Assembly: GCA_025998675.1 (NCBI GenBank)
Contig: AP024673.1
Location: 647,221 to 711,220, forward strand
Origin: Fimbriimonadales bacterium
GTDB taxonomy: Bacteria > Armatimonadota > Fimbriimonadia > Fimbriimonadales > GBS-DC
Length of the DNA: 64,000 nt
Direction of reading: 5' to 3'
In this document: positions 53,845 to 63,714 of the stretch, piece after piece
Layout: every line of letters starts with the position of its first letter
Position numbering within the stretch: the first letter of the stretch is position 1
Position numbers and translations under genes: made by a program
The notes under the pieces: model-generated
Database searches by the model: none
What the model was told of the DNA's origin: nothing
What the model saw: the letters and a program-made list of their open reading frames with translations, nothing else

Positions 53845-54264
53845 ATGCGAACGATTCTGATGGCGTATCGCGGCAGCGAGCATGATAAGCGGATACTCCG
53901 ATGGCTGTGCCGCTTCGCGAAGCACACGCGGAGCAACCTGCGGCTGGTCTATGTGCTGACCGTCGGCTACACGCATGAGGTGGACGACCCCGAACCCCCT
54001 GGCGCAAAGGAGGCGGAGCAGATGCTGCTGGAGGCGGAACACCTCGCACAGGAGGAGGGCGTCGTTGTCGCCGCCGATCTGGTGCAGGCGCGCGAGGTCG
54101 GTCCAGGGCTGGTCAGCGAGGCGGAGGAGGTAGAGGCGAACCTGCTGGTGCTGACCGACCACCGCAAACTGCTGCCGATGGAGAACCCGCTGGGTGTGGG
54201 CGTGGTCGCCTATGTGATGAAGCACGCCCCCTGCCCCGTGTGGCTTTGCTACGAGCCGCTTTAG
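53845..54264 (+). CDS. Universal stress protein (UspA family)
   Basis: The protein has 139 residues, starting 2 bases after the transporter stop. The N-terminus MRTILMAYRGSEHDKRILRWLCRFA has the Usp fold start, though the usual D is A/Y-shifted. The C-terminus MENPLGVGVVAYVMKHAPCPVWL matches the nucleotide-binding region (G-x2-G-x9-G-S/T) only loosely. Pairing with a potassium transporter is common, and it may help regulate the transporter. Confidence 0.75.
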   Translation: MRTILMAYRGSEHDKRILRWLCRFAKHTRSNLRLVYVLTVGYTHEVDDPEPPGAKEAEQMLLEAEHLAQEEGVVVAADLVQAREVGPGLVSEAEEVEANLLVLTDHRKLLPMENPLGVGVVAYVMKHAPCPVWLCYEPL

Positions 54265-54350
54265 ACGCCCCCGCACGCAATTTCACGGTAAAGTTTTTGC
54301 CCCGCCCTGCCCAAAATACTCTCGGCTCGAAACCTGCCGAGGGGGTCGTT

Positions 54351-55532
54351 ATGGAACAAAACTTCGACTGGCGTAAACTGGTTGGGCTGGAGGCAGCGGA
54401 CGACGAGGAGCAACCGACCAACAACGCAACCGATGTCACCCTGCAAATCGCAGGCGATGAACAATCTGTAGAGGACATCAGCATCGACGACCTGCTGCGC
54501 CAGTGCGTGGAGCGCGGCGGTTCGGACCTGCATCTGACCGCGGGGCTGCCGCCGACCATTCGGCTCAGTGGACATCTCACCCCCCTGCCCTACAAGCCGC
54601 TCACGCCCCACGACACGCGGCGTCTGGTCTACGAAGCGCTGAACGACCAGCAGCTGGAGCAGTTCGAGCGCCACCACGAGCTGGACTTCGCCTACACGGT
54701 CAAAGACACGGCGCGATTCCGCTTCAATGTCTACATGCAGCGGGGTTCTGTCGCCGCCGCCATGCGCGTCATCCCCTCGCGCATCCCCTCCATCGAGTCG
54801 CTGCGCCTGCCATCGGTCATCTACGAGGTGGTCAAAAAGCACAGCGGGCTGGTGCTGGTGACGGGACCCACAGGGTCAGGCAAGTCCACCTCGCTGGCGT
54901 GCATGATTGACCTCATCAATCAGACGCGCCCGTGCCATATTATGACCATCGAAGACCCCATCGAGTATGTCCATACGCACAAGCGCGCGATGGTGAACCA
55001 GCGCGAGGTACACGCCGACACCGAGAGCTTCCACAACGCCCTGCGCGCCGTGCTACGTGAGGACCCCGATGTGATACTGGTCGGCGAGATGCGCGATCTG
55101 GAGACGATTCAAGCCGCGCTCACCCTCGCCGAGACGGGACACCTCGTGTTTGCCACGCTTCATACGCGCAACGCCCCGCAGACCATCGACCGTATCATCG
55201 ATGTCTTCCCGCCGCACCAGCAGGAGCAGATTCGCGTGCTGCTGGCAAGCACCATCGAAGCCATTTTCGCGCAGCAGCTCATCCCGATGATTGGCGGGGG
55301 GCGCGTCGCCGCCATCGAAGTGCTGATTGCCAACGCCGCTATCCGCAACCTCATCCGCGAGGGCAAAACGCACCAGATTTACTCCATCATGGAAACCCAG
55401 TCAGGACAGGGCATGATTACGATGGATCGCGCGTTAGCCGACCTGCACCGCAACGGCTACATCACCTATGAAGAGGCGGTCAACCGCGCGATGGACAGAG
55501 AGAACTTCACGCAACTGCTGAAGACCGCGTAA
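54351..55532 (+). CDS. pilT: Type IV pilus retraction ATPase PilT
   Basis: The protein has 393 residues. After an acidic N-terminal extension (1-45), the PilT core has Walker A GPTGSGKST (172-180) and an Asp box LTIEDPIEYV-like segment. Walker B is DVILVGEMRDLETI and the His box HLVFATLHTRNA. The AIRNLIREGKTHQ motif is specific to PilT. It depolymerises pili for twitching and DNA uptake. The start at 54351 follows an ~86-base gap with no clear promoter. pilC follows 12 bases downstream. Confidence 0.93.
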   Translation: MEQNFDWRKLVGLEAADDEEQPTNNATDVTLQIAGDEQSVEDISIDDLLRQCVERGGSDLHLTAGLPPTIRLSGHLTPLPYKPLTPHDTRRLVYEALNDQQLEQFERHHELDFAYTVKDTARFRFNVYMQRGSVAAAMRVIPSRIPSIESLRLPSVIYEVVKKHSGLVLVTGPTGSGKSTSLACMIDLINQTRPCHIMTIEDPIEYVHTHKRAMVNQREVHADTESFHNALRAVLREDPDVILVGEMRDLETIQAALTLAETGHLVFATLHTRNAPQTIDRIIDVFPPHQQEQIRVLLASTIEAIFAQQLIPMIGGGRVAAIEVLIANAAIRNLIREGKTHQIYSIMETQSGQGMITMDRALADLHRNGYITYEEAVNRAMDRENFTQLLKTA

Positions 55533-55544
55533 GGAGGATTGGGT

Positions 55545-56756
55545 ATGCCACTCTACGGATACGAAGCCGTCGACAACAAGGGACGCACGCTCAAAGGCGC
55601 GATTGAAGCGGACAACGAGCAACTGGTGCTTGCCAAGCTCCACGAACAGGGGCTCCATGTGGTGCGTGTGGCGCCCCAACGCGCCAAAACCCAACTGTTC
55701 AGCGGCGTCGGCAAGTCCAAAAAGCCCAAACTGCAGGCGCTGGTTCTCTTCACCCGCCAGTTCGCGACCATGATCGACGCGGGCATCCCCATCCTGCGCT
55801 GTCTGGACATCCTGCACACCCAGACCAAAGACCAGGCGCTCAAGACCGCCATCGACGCCATCCGCAAGGATGTCAAATCGGGGATGGCGCTCAACGAGGC
55901 GATGGAAAAGCACCCGTTCGTTTTCTCCGACCTGTTCGTGAACATGATACGCGCGGCGGAGGTGGCGGGTATTCTCGATCAGATTTTGGACCGACTGGCG
56001 ACCTTCCTCGAAAAAGACCTCGAGGTGCGTCAGAAAATCAAGTCGGCGATGATGTACCCCGTGATGGTGCTGGCGTTCTCGTTTCTGGTGCTGATTGCTA
56101 TCTTCACCTTCGTGCTGCCGAAGTTCAAGGAGATATTCGCCAGCATGAATGTGGAGATGCCCACGATGACGAAGTTCCTGTTCAGCGCAAGCGACTTCAT
56201 GGTGGGCTACTGGTGGGCGATTGCGGGGTTGCTGGCAGGCGTCGTGTTCGCCGTCAAGGCGTATATTCGCAAGCCGCGCGGGCGCTACCAGTACGACTAC
56301 CTCAAACTCAAGTTCCCAATCTTCGGCGATCTGGTGATGAAGCTGGCGGTAGCGCGGTTCGCCCGCACCTTCGGCGTGCTGGTCGCCAGCGGCGTGCCGC
56401 TGATGCGCACGCTGGAAATCGTGGGGCAGACTTCGGGCAATCAGGTGCTGGCGACCGCCATCGAAGGCACGCGCCAGAGCATCCGCGAGGGGCAGCCACT
56501 CAGCGCGCCCTTCGCCGCCACAGGACTGTTCCCCTCGATGGTCATTCACATGCTCGACATCGGCGAGGAGTCGGGACGCCTCTCCGAGATGATGGTCAAA
56601 ATCGCCGATTTCTACGAGCAGGAGGTGGACGCGACCATCAAGGGACTGACCTCGATGATCGAGCCGATGCTGATTGTGTTTCTGGGGGGCATCGTGGGCT
56701 TCATCGCGATCTCAATCATGATGCCAATGTTCAAACTGATTAATGCGATACAGTAG
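55545..56756 (+). CDS. pilC: Type IV pilus inner-membrane platform protein PilC (type II secretion GspF family)
   Basis: The protein has 403 residues with the expected duplicated GspF domains. The first has FTRQFATMIDAGIPILRCLDIL and the second FARTFGVLVASGVPLMRTLEIV. Three membrane segments lie at about 170-190, 220-240 and 370-395. It anchors the PilT/PilB motors. AAGGAGG precedes the ATG. The N-terminal YGYEAVDNKGRTLKGAIEA is the usual short domain before GspF repeats. Confidence 0.95.
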   Translation: MPLYGYEAVDNKGRTLKGAIEADNEQLVLAKLHEQGLHVVRVAPQRAKTQLFSGVGKSKKPKLQALVLFTRQFATMIDAGIPILRCLDILHTQTKDQALKTAIDAIRKDVKSGMALNEAMEKHPFVFSDLFVNMIRAAEVAGILDQILDRLATFLEKDLEVRQKIKSAMMYPVMVLAFSFLVLIAIFTFVLPKFKEIFASMNVEMPTMTKFLFSASDFMVGYWWAIAGLLAGVVFAVKAYIRKPRGRYQYDYLKLKFPIFGDLVMKLAVARFARTFGVLVASGVPLMRTLEIVGQTSGNQVLATAIEGTRQSIREGQPLSAPFAATGLFPSMVIHMLDIGEESGRLSEMMVKIADFYEQEVDATIKGLTSMIEPMLIVFLGGIVGFIAISIMMPMFKLINAIQ

Positions 56757-56834: not shown

Positions 56835-58133
56835 ATGCTAAAACGGGATACGGAGGAACTGGTGCTGGAATATTGTCAGACGCGCGATCTGGAACTGCGC
56901 GACGCTATTACTATCCAACTGTCGGGGCTGGTGGAGAGTATCGCGCGCAAGTTCGTCGGCTCAGGCGAGCCCATCGAAGACCTCATTCAGGAGGGCTATC
57001 TGGGACTGCTGAACGCGCTGGATCTGTTCAAGCCTGAAAAAGGCGTCAAGTTCACCACCTACGCCACGCACCTGATTGTCGGGCAAATCAAGCACTACCT
57101 GCGCGACAAAGGCAAAATCATCAAGGAGCCCGCGTGGCTGCAGGAGCTGAACAGCAAAATCAATCGCGTGGTCAACGAGCTGAGCGCACGCTATGGGCGC
57201 CCTCCCAGCACCCAGGAGGTCGCCGAGTTCCTGGGCATGACCACAAAAGCCGTTGAGGATGTGCTGATGACGCGCGAGGTGTTCAAAGTCAGCTCACTGG
57301 ACGCTATCTACGAAGACGAGGAGGAGGAATGGAACGGCTACGACCTCGATAAGCTCAACTGCGAGCCGTGCCAGACCTTCAACCTGCCAATTGAGGAGCG
57401 CGTCGTTGTGGAGACCGCCATGCAACAGCTGAAACAGATTGAGCAACAGGTGCTGCACCTCTTTTTCGAGGAGGGCTACAATCAGACCGAGATTGCGCAC
57501 CAGCTCAAAATCTCGTGCAATTATGTGTCGCATATCCTGCGCAACGCGACTCAAAAGCTACGGCGCATCGTGAGCGAGGCGGAGTGGATTGACGAGCAGC
57601 GATTTCGGGCGCGTGCGCTGGCGCGGGGCGATTTCGAGGCGCGCATTCTGGACCCGCAGACGGGGCTGTTCTCAGCGGACTACCTTGGCGTGCGCCTGCG
57701 CGAGGAGGTGCAGCGCGCCGCCCGTTATAATCAGAGCGTCGGATTCGCCGTCTTCGAGTTCGTCGCCGAGAAGCGCGCGCTCGATGCGCTGGGCGAGTTC
57801 GCGATTGGCGAGTTGCTGCTGCAAGCGTCGGCGGTCGTGCGCGACGCGGTGCGCAAAGCAGACATCGTGGGGCGCTACGGACACACCACGCTGGGCTTGC
57901 TGCTGCCCTACGCGGGCGAACACGCGCCCAGCATCGCCGCGCGCGTGGCGGACGCGCTCACCGAGTGGCTTCAGACCGCCTTCAGCCCCTCGATGCGCGA
58001 ACGATTCCACATCCACTGCGGCTGGGCGTTCTACCCGCGCGATTGCGACGACCACGAGCAGCTGATGCGCCAGGCGGAGCAGCGACTGCTGGAACACCGC
58101 GCCCGCGCTCGCCTGCACACCGACGCGGCGTGA
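56835..58133 (+). CDS. Sigma-70 family factor fused to a degenerate GGDEF domain
   Basis: The protein has 432 residues. Residues 1-250 form a sigma-B/F/FliA-type sigma factor. Region 2 is GEPIEDLIQEGYLGLLNALDLF ... KFTTYATHLIVGQIKHYLRD, region 3 is ARYGRPPSTQEVAEFLGM, and region 4 has the HTH GYNQTEIAHQLKISCNYVSHIL. Residues 270-425 form a GGDEF fold starting DPQTGLFSADYLGVRLREEV. The signature position reads GHTTL (349-353), so cyclase activity is unlikely. The inhibitory-site motif RKAD (340-343) is kept exactly 5 residues upstream. The domain may therefore bind c-di-GMP and gate the sigma factor (inference). AGGAGG precedes the start, and pilT/pilC lie just upstream. Confidence 0.85.
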   Translation: MLKRDTEELVLEYCQTRDLELRDAITIQLSGLVESIARKFVGSGEPIEDLIQEGYLGLLNALDLFKPEKGVKFTTYATHLIVGQIKHYLRDKGKIIKEPAWLQELNSKINRVVNELSARYGRPPSTQEVAEFLGMTTKAVEDVLMTREVFKVSSLDAIYEDEEEEWNGYDLDKLNCEPCQTFNLPIEERVVVETAMQQLKQIEQQVLHLFFEEGYNQTEIAHQLKISCNYVSHILRNATQKLRRIVSEAEWIDEQRFRARALARGDFEARILDPQTGLFSADYLGVRLREEVQRAARYNQSVGFAVFEFVAEKRALDALGEFAIGELLLQASAVVRDAVRKADIVGRYGHTTLGLLLPYAGEHAPSIAARVADALTEWLQTAFSPSMRERFHIHCGWAFYPRDCDDHEQLMRQAEQRLLEHRARARLHTDAA

Positions 58134-58151: not shown

Positions 58152-59462
58152 CTACTGCGCTGCCTGTTGCACGCGACGGATAGCGCACAGCGTCCGCTGG
58201 ATTGCGTGTTCCCGCGCAATCTGTTCCGCCTGCGCCAGCGCGCACGAGGCGCGCGCCTCATCGCCCAGCGTGCAACAGATTTCGTACAGCACCATCAGGT
58301 AGTTCGCTTGCGTCGCGGGGAGCGGATTCACGGGGGGGCTGAGGATTTCCAGCGCCTGACGGGGCTGCCCCACGCGGGACAGCACCCGCGCGCGCGACAC
58401 CAGCGCGTGCTGATATTCCGCAGGGTTGCCTGCTCGCTGAATTATCTGGAACCCCTGCTCTGCGGCGCGGATCGCCTCCTCGTATCGGCGCGCCTCCGAG
58501 TAGAACTCGGCGATTTCACGATAGAACCACGACTCATGCTCCAGGGACTGACTGACGGGGGGCAGCCACTCTTGAAGAATCTCCGCCGACTCCGTAAGGC
58601 GCGCGGCATCCCGTTTTGGCTCCGCGTTTCCGATGGCGATTGCCATAATGAGCCAGGCGGCGCTGCGTGGAAAACTCTTCGCGCCCTCCAGCAGTCGCAG
58701 CCCGCGATAGCCATAGCGCTCGGCGTCCTGCACGCGCCCGTGCAGGGTATACCACTGGCAACAGAGGGTGTAGACCTCGCGCAGCATGTCCGCGTGGCGT
58801 GGGCACTGACGCACATGCCACCACGCCTGCGCCTCCAGCGCAAGCAGGCGCAACTCCATCCCTTCCGTAACGCCCTGCCACACCATCTGCCGCATCTGCT
58901 CAATGCGTGTGTTCAGCAAGACGGCTTCCTCGCATACCGATTGAACCGGCGGCGGCTCCAGCCAGAGCGGGCGCGCGAGCAGGAAGGCGACCTCCTCCGC
59001 GCTCGCATGGAGCACATAGCAAAGTGTATGCAAGTGTTCATCGGACGGAATCGCTTGCGAGCGTTCCCAGCCGCGCACGCTCCGCTCCGACACCTTCAGC
59101 GCCGCCGCCAGTTGCGCGACGCTCCAGCCCTGACGCCGACGCAACGCGCCCAGCAGGTCGCCCAGCAGCGGCGGGTTCAGCTCGCCCGAAGGGTGCGGCT
59201 GCCGCCGCGTCCACTGCTGCAGGGTAATCAGCGCGCGCGGCGCATCCAGCAGGCGCAACGCCTCCAGCCGCTCTTCCGAAGAGACGCCTAACGCCTGAAG
59301 CGTCTGCTCCAGTTCGGGTATGGATGGTCGGGTCTGTTCCCGCTCCCAGCGGTTCAGGGTGCTGGCAGACACACGCGCGCGCTGCGCCAGCGCGTGCTGT
59401 GAAAGCCCCCGCCGCTCACGGGTCTGCCGAATCCACGCCCCGATGGACTGCGCCATAAACAT
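58152..59462 (-). CDS. Double-HTH (XRE) regulator with TPR-like C-terminal domain
   Basis: The protein has 436 residues. The first HTH (RERRGLSQHALAQRARVSASTLNRWEREQTRPS) is followed by a second (RRRQGWSVAQLAAALKVSERSVRGWERSQAIPS). The remaining ~280 residues are helical repeats of TPR type (YREIAEFYSEARRYEEAIRAAEQGFQII, LVSRARVLSRVGQPRQALEIL). Such proteins usually act as peptide- or signal-responsive regulators. TACAAT (59471-59476) lies 8 bases before the ATG at 59462, but AGAGGA favours the ATG at 59456. The gene is convergent to the sigma-GGDEF gene, 18 bases apart. Confidence 0.8.
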   Translation of the reverse strand: MFMAQSIGAWIRQTRERRGLSQHALAQRARVSASTLNRWEREQTRPSIPELEQTLQALGVSSEERLEALRLLDAPRALITLQQWTRRQPHPSGELNPPLLGDLLGALRRRQGWSVAQLAAALKVSERSVRGWERSQAIPSDEHLHTLCYVLHASAEEVAFLLARPLWLEPPPVQSVCEEAVLLNTRIEQMRQMVWQGVTEGMELRLLALEAQAWWHVRQCPRHADMLREVYTLCCQWYTLHGRVQDAERYGYRGLRLLEGAKSFPRSAAWLIMAIAIGNAEPKRDAARLTESAEILQEWLPPVSQSLEHESWFYREIAEFYSEARRYEEAIRAAEQGFQIIQRAGNPAEYQHALVSRARVLSRVGQPRQALEILSPPVNPLPATQANYLMVLYEICCTLGDEARASCALAQAEQIAREHAIQRTLCAIRRVQQAAQ

Positions 59463-59586
59463 CCTCTTCTATTGTACCGCTAAAGTTGTTCCCCAAGCCA
59501 TCGAATCGCGCCCTTTTGCAATTTCACTTCCGCACCCCCCAAAACCCCATCCGACGGGTTATACTGGAGATGAGGAGGTAAGCGTG

Positions 59587-61056
59587 ATGCGAGCGGTACG
59601 ATGGAAGCGGATGATAACTCTGGTCGCTTTGACTGAGACAGCGACCCTGGGCACACTTTCAGGGCAACAACCGCTGTGGGTGCGTCACAACACGCTGGGC
59701 AACACAGCCAGAGCGATGCTGGTAGACAGCGCTGGCTATATCTATGTGACAGGACAGGGCTGGCGTCAGGGAACAGGCAATGACTTCGTGACGGTTAAGT
59801 ATGACCCCGATGGCAACCTGGTCTGGCAGCACGCTTTTTCGGGTGAAACGATCGCCTTCGACGACCATGCCGCCGCAATTGCAGAAGACCAAGCGGGCAA
59901 TGTTATCGTGACCGGTCAAGTGGATGTGGTAAGGAATAATACTCCTGGCACTGGTTATGCAACCCTCAAATACCTTTTTAACTCGACAGGCACACCCACA
60001 TGGGGACGGAGATACATGGGATCGCAGCAAGAGTTTCCCTCGAATGCGGCCCGTGCGATTGCAACTGACTTTCTAAGTAATGTCTATGTAACTGGTATGA
60101 GCCGAGGGAATGATAGTGCAGAGGACATCGTGACAGTCAGCTATGGTCCAACTGGCAACGAACGATGGGTGCGTCGCTACGCTGGGGGAGGCTATTCTCA
60201 AGATTGGGGCAATGCAATCAAGGTCAACTGGTTTACAGGCGAGATCTATGTGACAGGAAAAACCGGGAACTTCCCCGTGCTCATCAAATACAGTTCGGGC
60301 AGCAGCGAGCTGTGGACGGCTATCGAAGGTAGTTTTCCGGGAGAAGCTCGAGCCATCGCCCTCGACACCAGTGGCAATATCTACATTGCCGGTCTCCATG
60401 CGTGGGATACCAGAAACTATTTCATCAGCAAGTACAACAGTGCGGGAACCCGTTTGTGGAATCGGGTCTACGATGGGGGCGGGCATGATGATGTCGCAGC
60501 GCTCGCCGTTGATGTGGACGGCAATGCCTATGTCACGGGAACCAGTCAGGGCACGGATACGGGCAATGACTACACCACCGTCAAGTACGACACGAACGGC
60601 AACCTGCAGTGGGTTCAGCGTTATCACTCTGGGGACGATCGGGCGTCAGGACTGGCGGTAAGCTTCTTCACAGGTGATGTCTATATCACAGGGCGCAGCG
60701 ACAATAAAATTGCCACCCTGAAGTATGACACGAATGGCAATCTGCAGTGGGTGCGTCGCTACGAGCATCGCAATGGTGCAGGCATCGGAGTCGGACTCTA
60801 CGAATACGAGCTGGGAATTCCGACCGTCTATGTGGTGGGCACAACACAAAGCGATTATACCATCATCAAGTACCCCCCGTGCTATGTGGTGGGTGATGTG
60901 GACGGCAACTGCTGCGTGGACGACGCCGATCTCCTGCTGGTGCTGTTCGACTTCGGACAGACAGGAATCGATTTGCAGGGCGATCTGAACAGCGACGGCA
61001 CTGTAGATGACGCGGACTTGCTGACGGTGTTGTTCAACTTTGGGAGTGGGTGCTGA
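59587..61056 (+). CDS. Secreted SBBP-type beta-propeller protein with dockerin-like C-terminus
   Basis: The protein has 489 residues. The start MRAVRWKRMITLVALTETAT gives a signal peptide. Repeats such as DFVTVKYDPDGNLVWQ, YTTVKYDTNGNLQWVQRYH and VDVDGNAYVTGTSQGTDTGNDY are of the SBBP (seven-bladed propeller-like) type. The last ~55 residues hold two dockerin-like calcium loops (DVDGNCCVDDADLL and DLNSDGTVDDADLL), and the chain ends FNFGSGC. AGGAGG lies 8 bases before the ATG, and TATACT (59560-59565) is the likely -10. It probably sits on or outside the cell surface. Confidence 0.85.
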   Translation: MRAVRWKRMITLVALTETATLGTLSGQQPLWVRHNTLGNTARAMLVDSAGYIYVTGQGWRQGTGNDFVTVKYDPDGNLVWQHAFSGETIAFDDHAAAIAEDQAGNVIVTGQVDVVRNNTPGTGYATLKYLFNSTGTPTWGRRYMGSQQEFPSNAARAIATDFLSNVYVTGMSRGNDSAEDIVTVSYGPTGNERWVRRYAGGGYSQDWGNAIKVNWFTGEIYVTGKTGNFPVLIKYSSGSSELWTAIEGSFPGEARAIALDTSGNIYIAGLHAWDTRNYFISKYNSAGTRLWNRVYDGGGHDDVAALAVDVDGNAYVTGTSQGTDTGNDYTTVKYDTNGNLQWVQRYHSGDDRASGLAVSFFTGDVYITGRSDNKIATLKYDTNGNLQWVRRYEHRNGAGIGVGLYEYELGIPTVYVVGTTQSDYTIIKYPPCYVVGDVDGNCCVDDADLLLVLFDFGQTGIDLQGDLNSDGTVDDADLLTVLFNFGSGC

Positions 61057-61092
61057 GCTATGAAGCGGCAACGCACACCTTACGGGAGGCAC

Positions 61093-62385
61093 ATGATGAA
61101 ACAGATGAGATTCAGTACGGCAAAATCGACGCCGCAGGAATGGCAGATGCGAAGAGGGCTATCCGTACTGGCGCTGAGTGTGATTCTGTCTGTTCCGATT
61201 GTGTTGAACGCTCAGAGTTTGATGTGGTTAGGTACCCTGGGTCAAAGTAGCACAGCGCATGGTGTATCAGATGATGGCAGAATGGTCGTTGGATATTCAG
61301 TACTTATGAATGGCATGAACCGTGCTTTTCGCTGGGCGCCAGAAACGGGAATGTTGTCTTTGGGGACGCTACCAGGCGGCAACCAAAGCGTGGCATACGG
61401 TGTTTCTGCAGATGGAAACAGCATTGTTGGGGAGTCGCCCTGGAATTGGCAGGGCGCTGGTGGAGGTGCTTTCCTCTGGCGTGCTGACAGAGGAATCGGT
61501 TCGTTGGGTACTCTTCCAGGAGGTCTATCCAGCGGGGCGCGCGCCGTGTCATACAATGGGTCAGTAGTTGTCGGCTGGTCTTCCACTGCAGGGTACTCAC
61601 CCATCTATGCTTTTCGCTGGAGATCGGGCAGTGGCATGCAATCGCTGGGCACGCTGGGCGGCTCCGAAAGTCGGGCGCTCGGCGTCTCGCGCGATGGCTC
61701 GGTCGTCGCCGGCTGGTCGTTCAACCATCTCAGCGAGCGATGGGCGTTCGTCTGGAAAGCGAACACTGGCATGCAGGCGCTGTATCCTCTCGCTGTCTGT
61801 TGTGGCGAAGCCTACGGCGTCTCGGACGATGGGCTGGTGATTGCAGGGCGCTCTCATTCCGCCACAACCGAACGCTGGCACGCCTGTCTGTGGGTCTGGA
61901 ATGCCTCCGACTATTCGCCCCGCGATTTAGGGACGCTGGGCGGCAACGAAAGCATCGCCTATGCCTGCACGAATAACCAGATTGCCGTCGGCTGGTCGCA
62001 CAACGCCAGCAATCAGCGACGCGCCTTTCGCTGGACGCCCACAGCCGGGATGATAGATCTCTCCGAAGCCTATACCAGCGTGCTGCCGCCCGGCGCGTAC
62101 CTGGAGGCGGCTTACGACATTACCCCCGACGGGCGCTACATCGTGGGGCGCGGCTACAACGCCGAGAGGGGACGCTTCGAGGCGTTCCTGCTGGATACCC
62201 TTTGCCTTGCGAACGATGGCGATGTGGACAATAACGGCTGCGTGGACGACGCTGACCTGCTCGCGGTGCTGTTCGCCTTTGGCAGTGCGGGGGAGATTCT
62301 CGGGCGCGTGGATACCAACTGCGACGGCACTGTAGACGACGCGGATCTGCTTACGGTGTTGTTCAACTTTGGGAGTGGGTGCTGA
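61093..62385 (+). CDS. Secreted HAF-repeat protein with dockerin-like C-terminus (copy 1)
   Basis: The protein has 430 residues from MMKQMRFSTAKSTPQEWQMR, with a signal peptide ending at LNAQS. HAF repeats recur through the body (MLSLGTLPGGNQSVAYGVSADGNSIVG, MQSLGTLGGSESRALGVSRDGSVVAGWS). The C-terminus has DVDNNGCVDDADLL and DTNCDGTVDDADLL and ends FNFGSGC. The start was chosen by comparison with copy 2, where the upstream frame is closed. GGGAGG precedes it. The second half is nearly identical to that of copy 2. Confidence 0.85.
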   Translation: MMKQMRFSTAKSTPQEWQMRRGLSVLALSVILSVPIVLNAQSLMWLGTLGQSSTAHGVSDDGRMVVGYSVLMNGMNRAFRWAPETGMLSLGTLPGGNQSVAYGVSADGNSIVGESPWNWQGAGGGAFLWRADRGIGSLGTLPGGLSSGARAVSYNGSVVVGWSSTAGYSPIYAFRWRSGSGMQSLGTLGGSESRALGVSRDGSVVAGWSFNHLSERWAFVWKANTGMQALYPLAVCCGEAYGVSDDGLVIAGRSHSATTERWHACLWVWNASDYSPRDLGTLGGNESIAYACTNNQIAVGWSHNASNQRRAFRWTPTAGMIDLSEAYTSVLPPGAYLEAAYDITPDGRYIVGRGYNAERGRFEAFLLDTLCLANDGDVDNNGCVDDADLLAVLFAFGSAGEILGRVDTNCDGTVDDADLLTVLFNFGSGC

Positions 62386-62421
62386 GCTATGAGGCGGCAA
62401 AGCACACTCTAAGGGAGACAC

Positions 62422-63714
62422 ATGATGAAACAGATGAGATTCAGCGCGGCAAAATCGCCGCCGCAGGGATTGCAGACGCGAAGAGGGCTGTTTGTACTCG
62501 TGCTGAGCGGGATGCTTGGCGCACCGACCTTGCTCCACGCCCAGAGCCTCACCTGGCTGGGGACGCTGGGGCATCCCAGTAGCGTCGCGCGCGGCGTCTC
62601 GGATAATGGCAGTGCGGTCACAGGCTGGTTTACACGCGCCGATGGGAAAAACTTCGCGTTTCGCTGGACGCAGAGTGGCGGGATGCAAAATCTGGGCACA
62701 CTCCCGCAACACACAACCAGCGAGGCATACGGGATTTCTGGCGACGGGAACAGAGTCGTGGGCGTCGCTTTTTACATCATCCCTTACGGGGGAAGCTGGA
62801 GAGGCTTTGAATGGACACCGCAAAACGGGATGCGCGATATTGGCAACCTGCCAGGCTCCCCCCTGAGCCGCGCCGATGCCATTTCAGCAAACGGCTCCGT
62901 GATTGTTGGTACAGGCGAGGACTATGGACCAGTGCTGCGTGCTTTCCGCAGAACTTCAGGCGGCATGCAATCACTGGGCACGCTGGGCGGCTCCGAAAGT
63001 CGGGCGCTCGGCGTCTCGCGCGATGGCTCGGTCGTCGCTGGCTGGTCGTTCAACCACCTCAGCGAGCGATGGGCGTTCGTCTGGAAAGCGAACACCGGCA
63101 TGCAGGGGCTGTATCCCCTCGCTGTCTGTTGTGGCGAAGCCTACGGCGTCTCGGACGATGGACAGGTGATTGCAGGGCGCTCCCATTCCGCCACAACCGA
63201 ACGCTGGCACGCCTGTCTGTGGGTCTGGAATGCCTCCGACTATTCGCCCCGCGACTTAGGGACGCTGGGCGGCAACGAAAGCATCGCCTATGCCTGCACG
63301 AATAACCAGATTGCCGTCGGCTGGTCGCACAACGCCAGCGGTCAGCGACGCGCCTTTCGCTGGACGCCCACAGCGGGGATGATAGATCTCTCCGAAGCCT
63401 ATGCCAGCGTGCTGCCGCCCGGCGCGTACCTGGAGGCGGCTTACGACATTACCCCCGACGGGCGCTACATCGTGGGGCGCGGCTACAACGCCGAGAGGGG
63501 ACGCTTCGAGGCGTTCCTGCTGGATACCCTCTGCCTCGCACACGACGGTGATGTGGACAATAACGGCTGCGTGGACGACGCCGACCTGCTCGCGGTGCTG
63601 TTTGCGTTTGGCAACGCAGGAGAGATTCTCGGGCGCGTCGATACCAACTGCGACGGCACGGTGGACGACGCCGACCTGCTGACGGTGTTGTTTAGCTTTG
63701 GGAGTGGGTGTTAG
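62422..63714 (+). CDS. Secreted HAF-repeat protein with dockerin-like C-terminus (copy 2)
   Basis: The protein has 430 residues, the same length as copy 1. The signal region (MMKQMRFSAAKSPPQGLQTR) and the C-terminal ~250 residues are nearly identical to copy 1. The central N-terminal repeats (residues 45-180) differ clearly. It ends FSFGSGC. The intergenic sequence before it also duplicates that before copy 1, so the pair arose by tandem duplication with later divergence or replacement of the middle. Confidence 0.85.
   Translation: MMKQMRFSAAKSPPQGLQTRRGLFVLVLSGMLGAPTLLHAQSLTWLGTLGHPSSVARGVSDNGSAVTGWFTRADGKNFAFRWTQSGGMQNLGTLPQHTTSEAYGISGDGNRVVGVAFYIIPYGGSWRGFEWTPQNGMRDIGNLPGSPLSRADAISANGSVIVGTGEDYGPVLRAFRRTSGGMQSLGTLGGSESRALGVSRDGSVVAGWSFNHLSERWAFVWKANTGMQGLYPLAVCCGEAYGVSDDGQVIAGRSHSATTERWHACLWVWNASDYSPRDLGTLGGNESIAYACTNNQIAVGWSHNASGQRRAFRWTPTAGMIDLSEAYASVLPPGAYLEAAYDITPDGRYIVGRGYNAERGRFEAFLLDTLCLAHDGDVDNNGCVDDADLLAVLFAFGNAGEILGRVDTNCDGTVDDADLLTVLFSFGSGC

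Follow-up and report, generated by a model that had tools for sequence, protein, structure and literature searches.

A sigma factor fused to a degenerate GGDEF domain as a candidate c-di-GMP-sensing regulator of type IV pilus genes in Armatimonadota

Introduction

As a rule, sigma factors are switched through partners, whether anti-sigma factors, partner switching, or proteolysis. Several described systems share features with the protein reported here. In the RsiG-WhiG system of Actinobacteria, c-di-GMP controls a group-3 sigma factor, and in Rubrobacter this switch governs type IV pili (PMC8325347); RsiG, a separate anti-sigma protein, does most of the ligand binding, with a coiled-coil motif. 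ECF41 sigma factors carry a fused C-terminal regulatory domain, target their own neighborhood, and have no obvious anti-sigma factor (PMC3426412), and no second-messenger ligand is known for them. SgmT and PopA, a histidine kinase and a response regulator, are c-di-GMP receptors whose GGDEF domains have a degenerate A-site and an intact I-site (PMC3509222). The I-site of PleD comprises R359, D362, and R390 together with R313 from the partner domain (PMC7288161), and a different arginine takes the partner role in DgcR (PMC8041772).

We analyzed a window of 64,000 nucleotides from a Fimbriimonadales bacterium (Armatimonadota) that contains a gene for a sigma factor fused to a degenerate GGDEF domain (Table 1). 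Like SgmT and PopA, this protein combines a broken A-site with an intact RxxD motif and a secondary arginine, and its GGDEF domain is joined to a signaling protein, but here that protein is a sigma factor. As in RsiG-WhiG, c-di-GMP would control a group-3 sigma factor and, through it, type IV pili, with the difference that the ligand would be held by a fused GGDEF fold. The protein shares with ECF41 factors a C-terminal regulator of its own, a putative target in its own neighborhood, and the lack of an obvious anti-sigma factor; it differs in the identity of the C-terminal domain and in having region 3, which sets it apart from their two-domain layout (regions 2 and 4 only). We read it as a one-component c-di-GMP-sensing group-3 (SigB/SigF/SigG-like) sigma factor that would control its own type IV pilus operon, a reading drawn from sequence comparison and structural modeling to which we assign a probability of roughly 0.7. 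Each ingredient is already established in other systems, and what is new is their union, a receptor domain within a sigma factor. No description of a sigma-GGDEF fusion was found in a non-exhaustive search of open-access full-text literature; within these bounds, the impression given by the first-pass annotation of this DNA, that no well-described sigma factor has a built-in ligand domain, held.

Results

Domain layout and predicted structure

The first-pass annotation described sigma-70 regions 2 to 4 running into a GGDEF fold. Pfam finds all four domains in the protein, each above its curated cut-off (the GGDEF match spans residues 272 to 424, 9.6e-17), and the same four are present in 20/20 members of a diverse orthologue alignment. 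With regions 2, 3, and 4 present and an RpoD-type N terminus absent, the sigma part has the composition of a group-3 sigma-70 factor. Its top NCBIfam match is the SigB/SigF/SigG family TIGR02980 (4.6e-50), which likewise has regions 2, 3, and 4; the score of 170.4 bits lies below the curated cut-off of 234.35, and the sigma part is therefore filed as SigB/F/G-like only. Besides this score, the recognition helix (SCNYVSHILR) and the fused domain distinguish it from that family. So does the genomic context: an HATPase_c_2 profile search recognized no small stand-alone SpoIIAB-like anti-sigma kinase in this genome, the matches falling in open frames 407 to 889 codons long.

The same annotation had placed GHTTL where the catalytic signature would be expected and RKAD at inhibitory-site spacing. 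Both are found as described, RKAD being an RxxD motif separated by five residues from the GGDEF position. Alignments superpose RKAD...GHTTL on the RxxD...GG[DE]EF of the solved GGDEF domains 6d9m and 3ign, the latter solved with c-di-GMP. In GHTTL, the two acidic residues and the second glycine of GGDEF are missing.

We obtained an AlphaFold2 model of the fusion built on 20 orthologues (mean pLDDT, 81.7). Single domains are predicted with confidence, but their mutual orientation is not (pTM, 0.44). The C-terminal part is predicted to be GGDEF-like, as the annotation had it: VIA-align matches residues 267 to 426 to 6d9m with a Z score of 19.4 (rmsd 2.3) and to PleD with bound c-di-GMP (2wb4) with a Z score of 18.8 (rmsd 2.2 over 156 residues). 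Diguanylate cyclases usually have a signaling stalk at the start of the GGDEF domain. In the model, a single helix (residues 228 to 263) links the recognition helix of region 4 to the start of the GGDEF domain, and from this stalk-like position we infer that region 4 and the GGDEF domain may be coupled through it.

Table 1. Features of the sigma-GGDEF locus, with positions counted from the first letter of the window
Feature	Position	Strand	Evidence
Promoter-like element TAAAGTTT-N12-GCCCAAAATA, 32 bases 5' of pilT start codon	54289..54318	+	Kept in most family f1 genomes
pilT-like ATPase gene	54351..55532	+	Pfam T2SSE, 4.4e-45
pilC-like gene, immediately 5' of sigma-GGDEF gene	55539..56756	+	Pfam T2SSF, 4.3e-66
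Sigma factor-GGDEF fusion gene, 432 aa	56835..58133	+	Open frame, Pfam, orthologues
Sigma-70 region 2, residues 30-94	56922..57116	+	Pfam PF04542 Sigma70_r2, 6.6e-19
Sigma-70 region 3, residues 104-154	57144..57296	+	Pfam PF04539, 8.6e-11
Sigma-70 region 4, residues 195-243	57417..57563	+	Pfam PF04545, 2.3e-13
Predicted long helix, residues 228-263, region-4 recognition helix to GGDEF domain	57516..57623	+	AlphaFold2 model, pLDDT about 70-80 over 240-270
Degenerate GGDEF domain, residues 267-426	57633..58112	+	Pfam PF00990; VIA-align Z 18-19 to 6d9m and PleD
Arg294, position of PleD R313 (secondary I-site arginine)	57714..57716	+	92/93 orthologues; alignments to 6d9m, 3ign
RKAD, residues 340-343, RxxD primary I-site motif	57852..57863	+	R and D in 93/93 orthologues; alignment
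GHTTL, residues 349-353, in place of GGDEF active-site motif	57879..57893	+	Sequence; intact GG[DE]EF in 0/93 orthologues
Arg370, position of PleD R390 (third primary-site residue)	57942..57944	+	92/93 orthologues

Conservation of the I-site after loss of the active site

Orthologues were gathered with peptides from the sigma part, so the collection is not biased toward RxxD. None of the 93 distinct orthologues has an intact GG[DE]EF motif and all retain RxxD; within RKAD itself, R and D are invariant and the middle letters KA vary, with RRAD, RKLD, RALD, and RRLD also found. Arg294 and Arg370 are each retained in 92 of the 93. We placed the PleD residues on this protein by alignments and by what we take to be the PleD numbering; Arg294 aligns with the first-helix arginine of 6d9m and 3ign. 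When the 160 columns of the domain were ranked by conservation across 67 orthologues under 80% identical, D343, R340, R370, and R294 took ranks 1, 2, 6, and 7, and the chance of four preset columns all falling in the top 7 is 1.3e-6. Most columns at the active-site motifs rank far down. R287, E290, and E291 are also invariant across orthologues; R287, two turns ahead of R294 on their shared helix, may contribute to the secondary site or to a docking face.

A comparison set of 45 GGDEF domains, mostly chosen for low scores and including one fusion member (L273), was drawn from Armatimonadota and this genome. RxxD is present in 21 of them and all four I-site residues in 10. The active-site motif is broken in only seven of the 45, and five of these seven, one being L273, keep RxxD, so the fusion family is not alone in retaining the motif once catalysis is lost. 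GGDEF domains in general often have RxxD and the arginines, and part of the conservation signal is therefore inherited.

By sequence, the domain belongs with the GGDEF domains that have a degenerate active site and an intact I-site, since it has the GGDEF fold, the broken motif, the RxxD spacing, and the secondary arginines, and it very probably binds c-di-GMP. Besides the fusion, this genome encodes five GGDEF proteins, each of which retains an intact GG[DE]EF, as well as seven HD_5 (HD-GYP) matches and three MshEN proteins; genome-wide statements here and below rest on pattern and profile searches.

Two further degenerate GGDEF domains that keep RxxD were noticed, L274 in G214 (RALD...STSGF), which seems to come after a receiver domain, and L267 in G217 (RRTD...SYSQF). 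Judged by these motifs, both are possible c-di-GMP receptors in Armatimonadota.

Distribution and origin of the fusion

Full-length orthologues with matches better than 1e-85 occur in 184 of 291 Armatimonadota genomes, and the fusion is therefore neither a product of chance nor a chimera or other artefact. In the order-level set, every one of the 41 genomes has some match, and most have a full-length one. The best 80 relatives in a GTDB-wide collection all come from Armatimonadota where the record names a lineage (Fimbriimonadales, Chthonomonadales, Zipacnadia, and others); as only these best 80 were considered, rarer occurrence outside the phylum is possible.

In a tree of the sigma parts, the fusions form a single clade (support, 0.947), separate from the stand-alone SigB/F/G factors of the phylum, which indicates that the fusion arose once. 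Sigma-only proteins of family f17 (L241 and L242) nest within this clade, so the GGDEF domain was lost in f17. In family f6 (L239 and L240) the domain has decayed and the I-site arginine is gone, with QAAD in L240. These natural losses offer useful controls for the role of the GGDEF domain. In genus g8 of the same order, the nearly complete genomes G026, G111, G118, G120, G122, G123, and G125 have no full-length match, while sister species retain one, a contrast that could reveal what co-occurs with the fusion.

Pilus gene neighborhood

A link to the adjacent pilT and pilC genes, suggested in the first-pass annotation, is backed by phylum-wide synteny and by a conserved promoter. Among the 69 orthologue loci whose upstream sequence is long enough for a test, pilC lies immediately 5' on the same strand in 51, is near but differently arranged (interrupted, divergent, or further off) in 3, and is not found near the gene in 15, including loci named as Chthonomonas and Chthonomonadaceae. 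Three genomes appeared to lack an adjacent pilC when a greedy ORF caller was used; tblastn found pilC on the same contigs for G022 and G037, and the result of this caller was left out of the counts. The pilC linkage extends across several deep lineages, including Zipacnadia. The gene order in deep branches is pilB-pilT-pilC-sigma, and we take this operon to be ancestral. The PilB protein of Zipacnadia (L310) has an MshEN domain (3.6e-25). As this domain is known to bind c-di-GMP, a single operon would there encode two readers of the same ligand. In L312 to L314, pilT and pilC adjoin the sigma-GGDEF gene on the opposite strand. We place the start of pilT in this genome at MEQNFDW, which is common to orthologues, and not at the GTG at 54240.

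Promoter elements

The element TAAAGTTT-N12-GCCCAAAATA is conserved in most f1 genomes, and the DNA flanking it is not. It has one match in the window versus none in 100 shuffles, and a looser version of the pattern has one match in the whole genome, also 5' of pilT. With TAAAGTTT exact, the element resembles the sigma-28 consensus, for which we used that of E. coli, TAAAGTTT-n11-GCCGATAA (PMC2859248). A sigma-70-like reading of the same promoter (TAAAGT-N17-CAAAAT) was rejected, as the FliA type fits much better. The -10 half of the element also resembles GGnnAnAAt, which we take to be of SigF type.

Outside family f1, no promoter of this type was found 5' of pilB, pilT, or pilC, bar one weak match, and Fimbriimonadaceae-type loci have no matching promoter 5' of pilC. 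Where the sigma gene stands alone, a related element (for example, TAAAG-N15-GGCAATAAT) lies 5' of it in 12 of 20 loci versus 0.16 expected from shuffles, using a pattern partly fitted on these loci; a pattern fixed beforehand gave 4 hits in 78 versus 0.3 expected. The presence of a similar element 5' of the gene or operon in two arrangements argues for autoregulation. Searches of this genome gave no additional copies of the GCCCAAAATA class, and the regulon may therefore consist of the pilT-pilC-sigma operon only. The genome also encodes a FliA/WhiG-type factor (L234), to which the pilT promoter may belong instead, and contains a second promoter class, TAAAGATT-N12-GCCGATAAT.

This second, FliA-type class was seen in six genomes, 5' of cysS (in two genera), of a prepilin-like gene (218322 and the G008 copy), and of a glycosyltransferase gene (L231, L232, and L233 in this genome; L204, L205, L213, L214, L223, and L224). 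Controls with the reversed pattern gave lower counts, and zero in this genome. By eye, a 119-aa gene 3' of a GCCGATAAT promoter resembled FlgM, but it has no Pfam match and was dropped.

Discussion

We propose that the GGDEF domain, having lost catalysis, acts as a c-di-GMP receptor. An intercalated c-di-GMP dimer would be held between two GGDEF domains, one contributing R340, D343, and R370 and the other R294 (perhaps also R287), thereby pairing two sigma molecules, and this pairing, transmitted by the helix out of region 4, would alter the access of region 4 to RNA polymerase or to the -35 element. Control of sigma activity by c-di-GMP seems probable to us. As to its sign, the analogy with product-inhibited diguanylate cyclases and with RsiG-WhiG tips us slightly toward inhibition rather than activation: the c-di-GMP-bound factor would be inactive, and the free factor would use the promoter at 54289 to transcribe the pilT-pilC-sigma operon to which its gene belongs. 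Pilus gene expression would then track c-di-GMP through one protein, without an anti-sigma factor.

Other roles for the GGDEF domain can be weighed against this proposal. The fold is that of GGDEF enzymes, and some degenerate motifs are active, as reported for AGDEF of VCA0965 (PMC3974145); nevertheless, with both acidic residues and the second glycine missing and the other active-site columns drifted, there is next to no chance that the domain still makes c-di-GMP and that the fusion is a transcription-coupled cyclase. The missing catalytic residues would also suit a domain that binds no nucleotide and serves as a scaffold for dimerization or protein docking, for example, of an anti-sigma factor or a pilus protein. 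The eroded f6 domain, with its lost I-site arginine, and the absence of the domain from f17 suggest that it is dispensable in some lineages, and the invariant R287, E290, and E291 could form a docking face, making a mixed role possible. However, near-invariance of precisely the four I-site residues in an otherwise mostly drifting domain is not expected of an inert scaffold, and we regard such a role as unlikely. The I-site might alternatively hold another cyclic dinucleotide or (p)ppGpp, as some GGDEF-family enzymes produce other dinucleotides (PMC7288161) and PleD crystal structures with c-di-GMP plus ppGpp or pppGpp exist (structure entries). We consider such a ligand very improbable: the c-di-GMP dimer of PleD is bound by the residues equivalent to R340, D343, R370, and R294 (PMC7288161), and both intact GGDEF proteins and HD-GYP domains are encoded in this genome.

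The factor might respond to c-di-GMP and yet have its main targets elsewhere, the pilC linkage being merely inherited. The 15 of 69 testable loci that have no pilC nearby would fit this view, as would the Fimbriimonadaceae-type loci, where pilC is not preceded by a matching promoter. Against it, the linkage is found in several deep lineages including Zipacnadia, it persists in L312 to L314 as an adjacent opposite-strand arrangement, and the sole whole-genome match to the promoter pattern is the one 5' of pilT. We hold non-pilus targets to be doubtful, though not far-fetched, and favor a c-di-GMP-sensing sigma factor that controls its own pilus operon. If this is true, c-di-GMP would reach promoter choice by the shortest possible path, through a sigma factor that carries its own receptor for the second messenger. 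RsiG-WhiG performs the same task, placing a sigma factor and type IV pili under c-di-GMP, and the fusion would be an independent solution to it, making convergence testable. The fusion provides a first handle on c-di-GMP signaling in Armatimonadota, and a small ligand-switched sigma factor is a possible tool.

Other genes in the window

Convergent to the sigma-GGDEF gene, with ends about 20 bases apart, lies a gene for a double-HTH XRE-type regulator with TPR-like repeats (58155-59462, minus strand). The stretch 59320-63714 encodes three successive secreted-looking proteins with a dockerin-like acidic repeat at their ends (such as GDVDNNGCVDDADLLAVLFAFG), for which the Pfam Dockerin_1 matches fall below threshold (E 0.003 and 0.006). 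The first of the three has SBBP propeller repeats. The genes at 61060-62385 and 62422-63714 are tandem copies, near-identical over much of their length.
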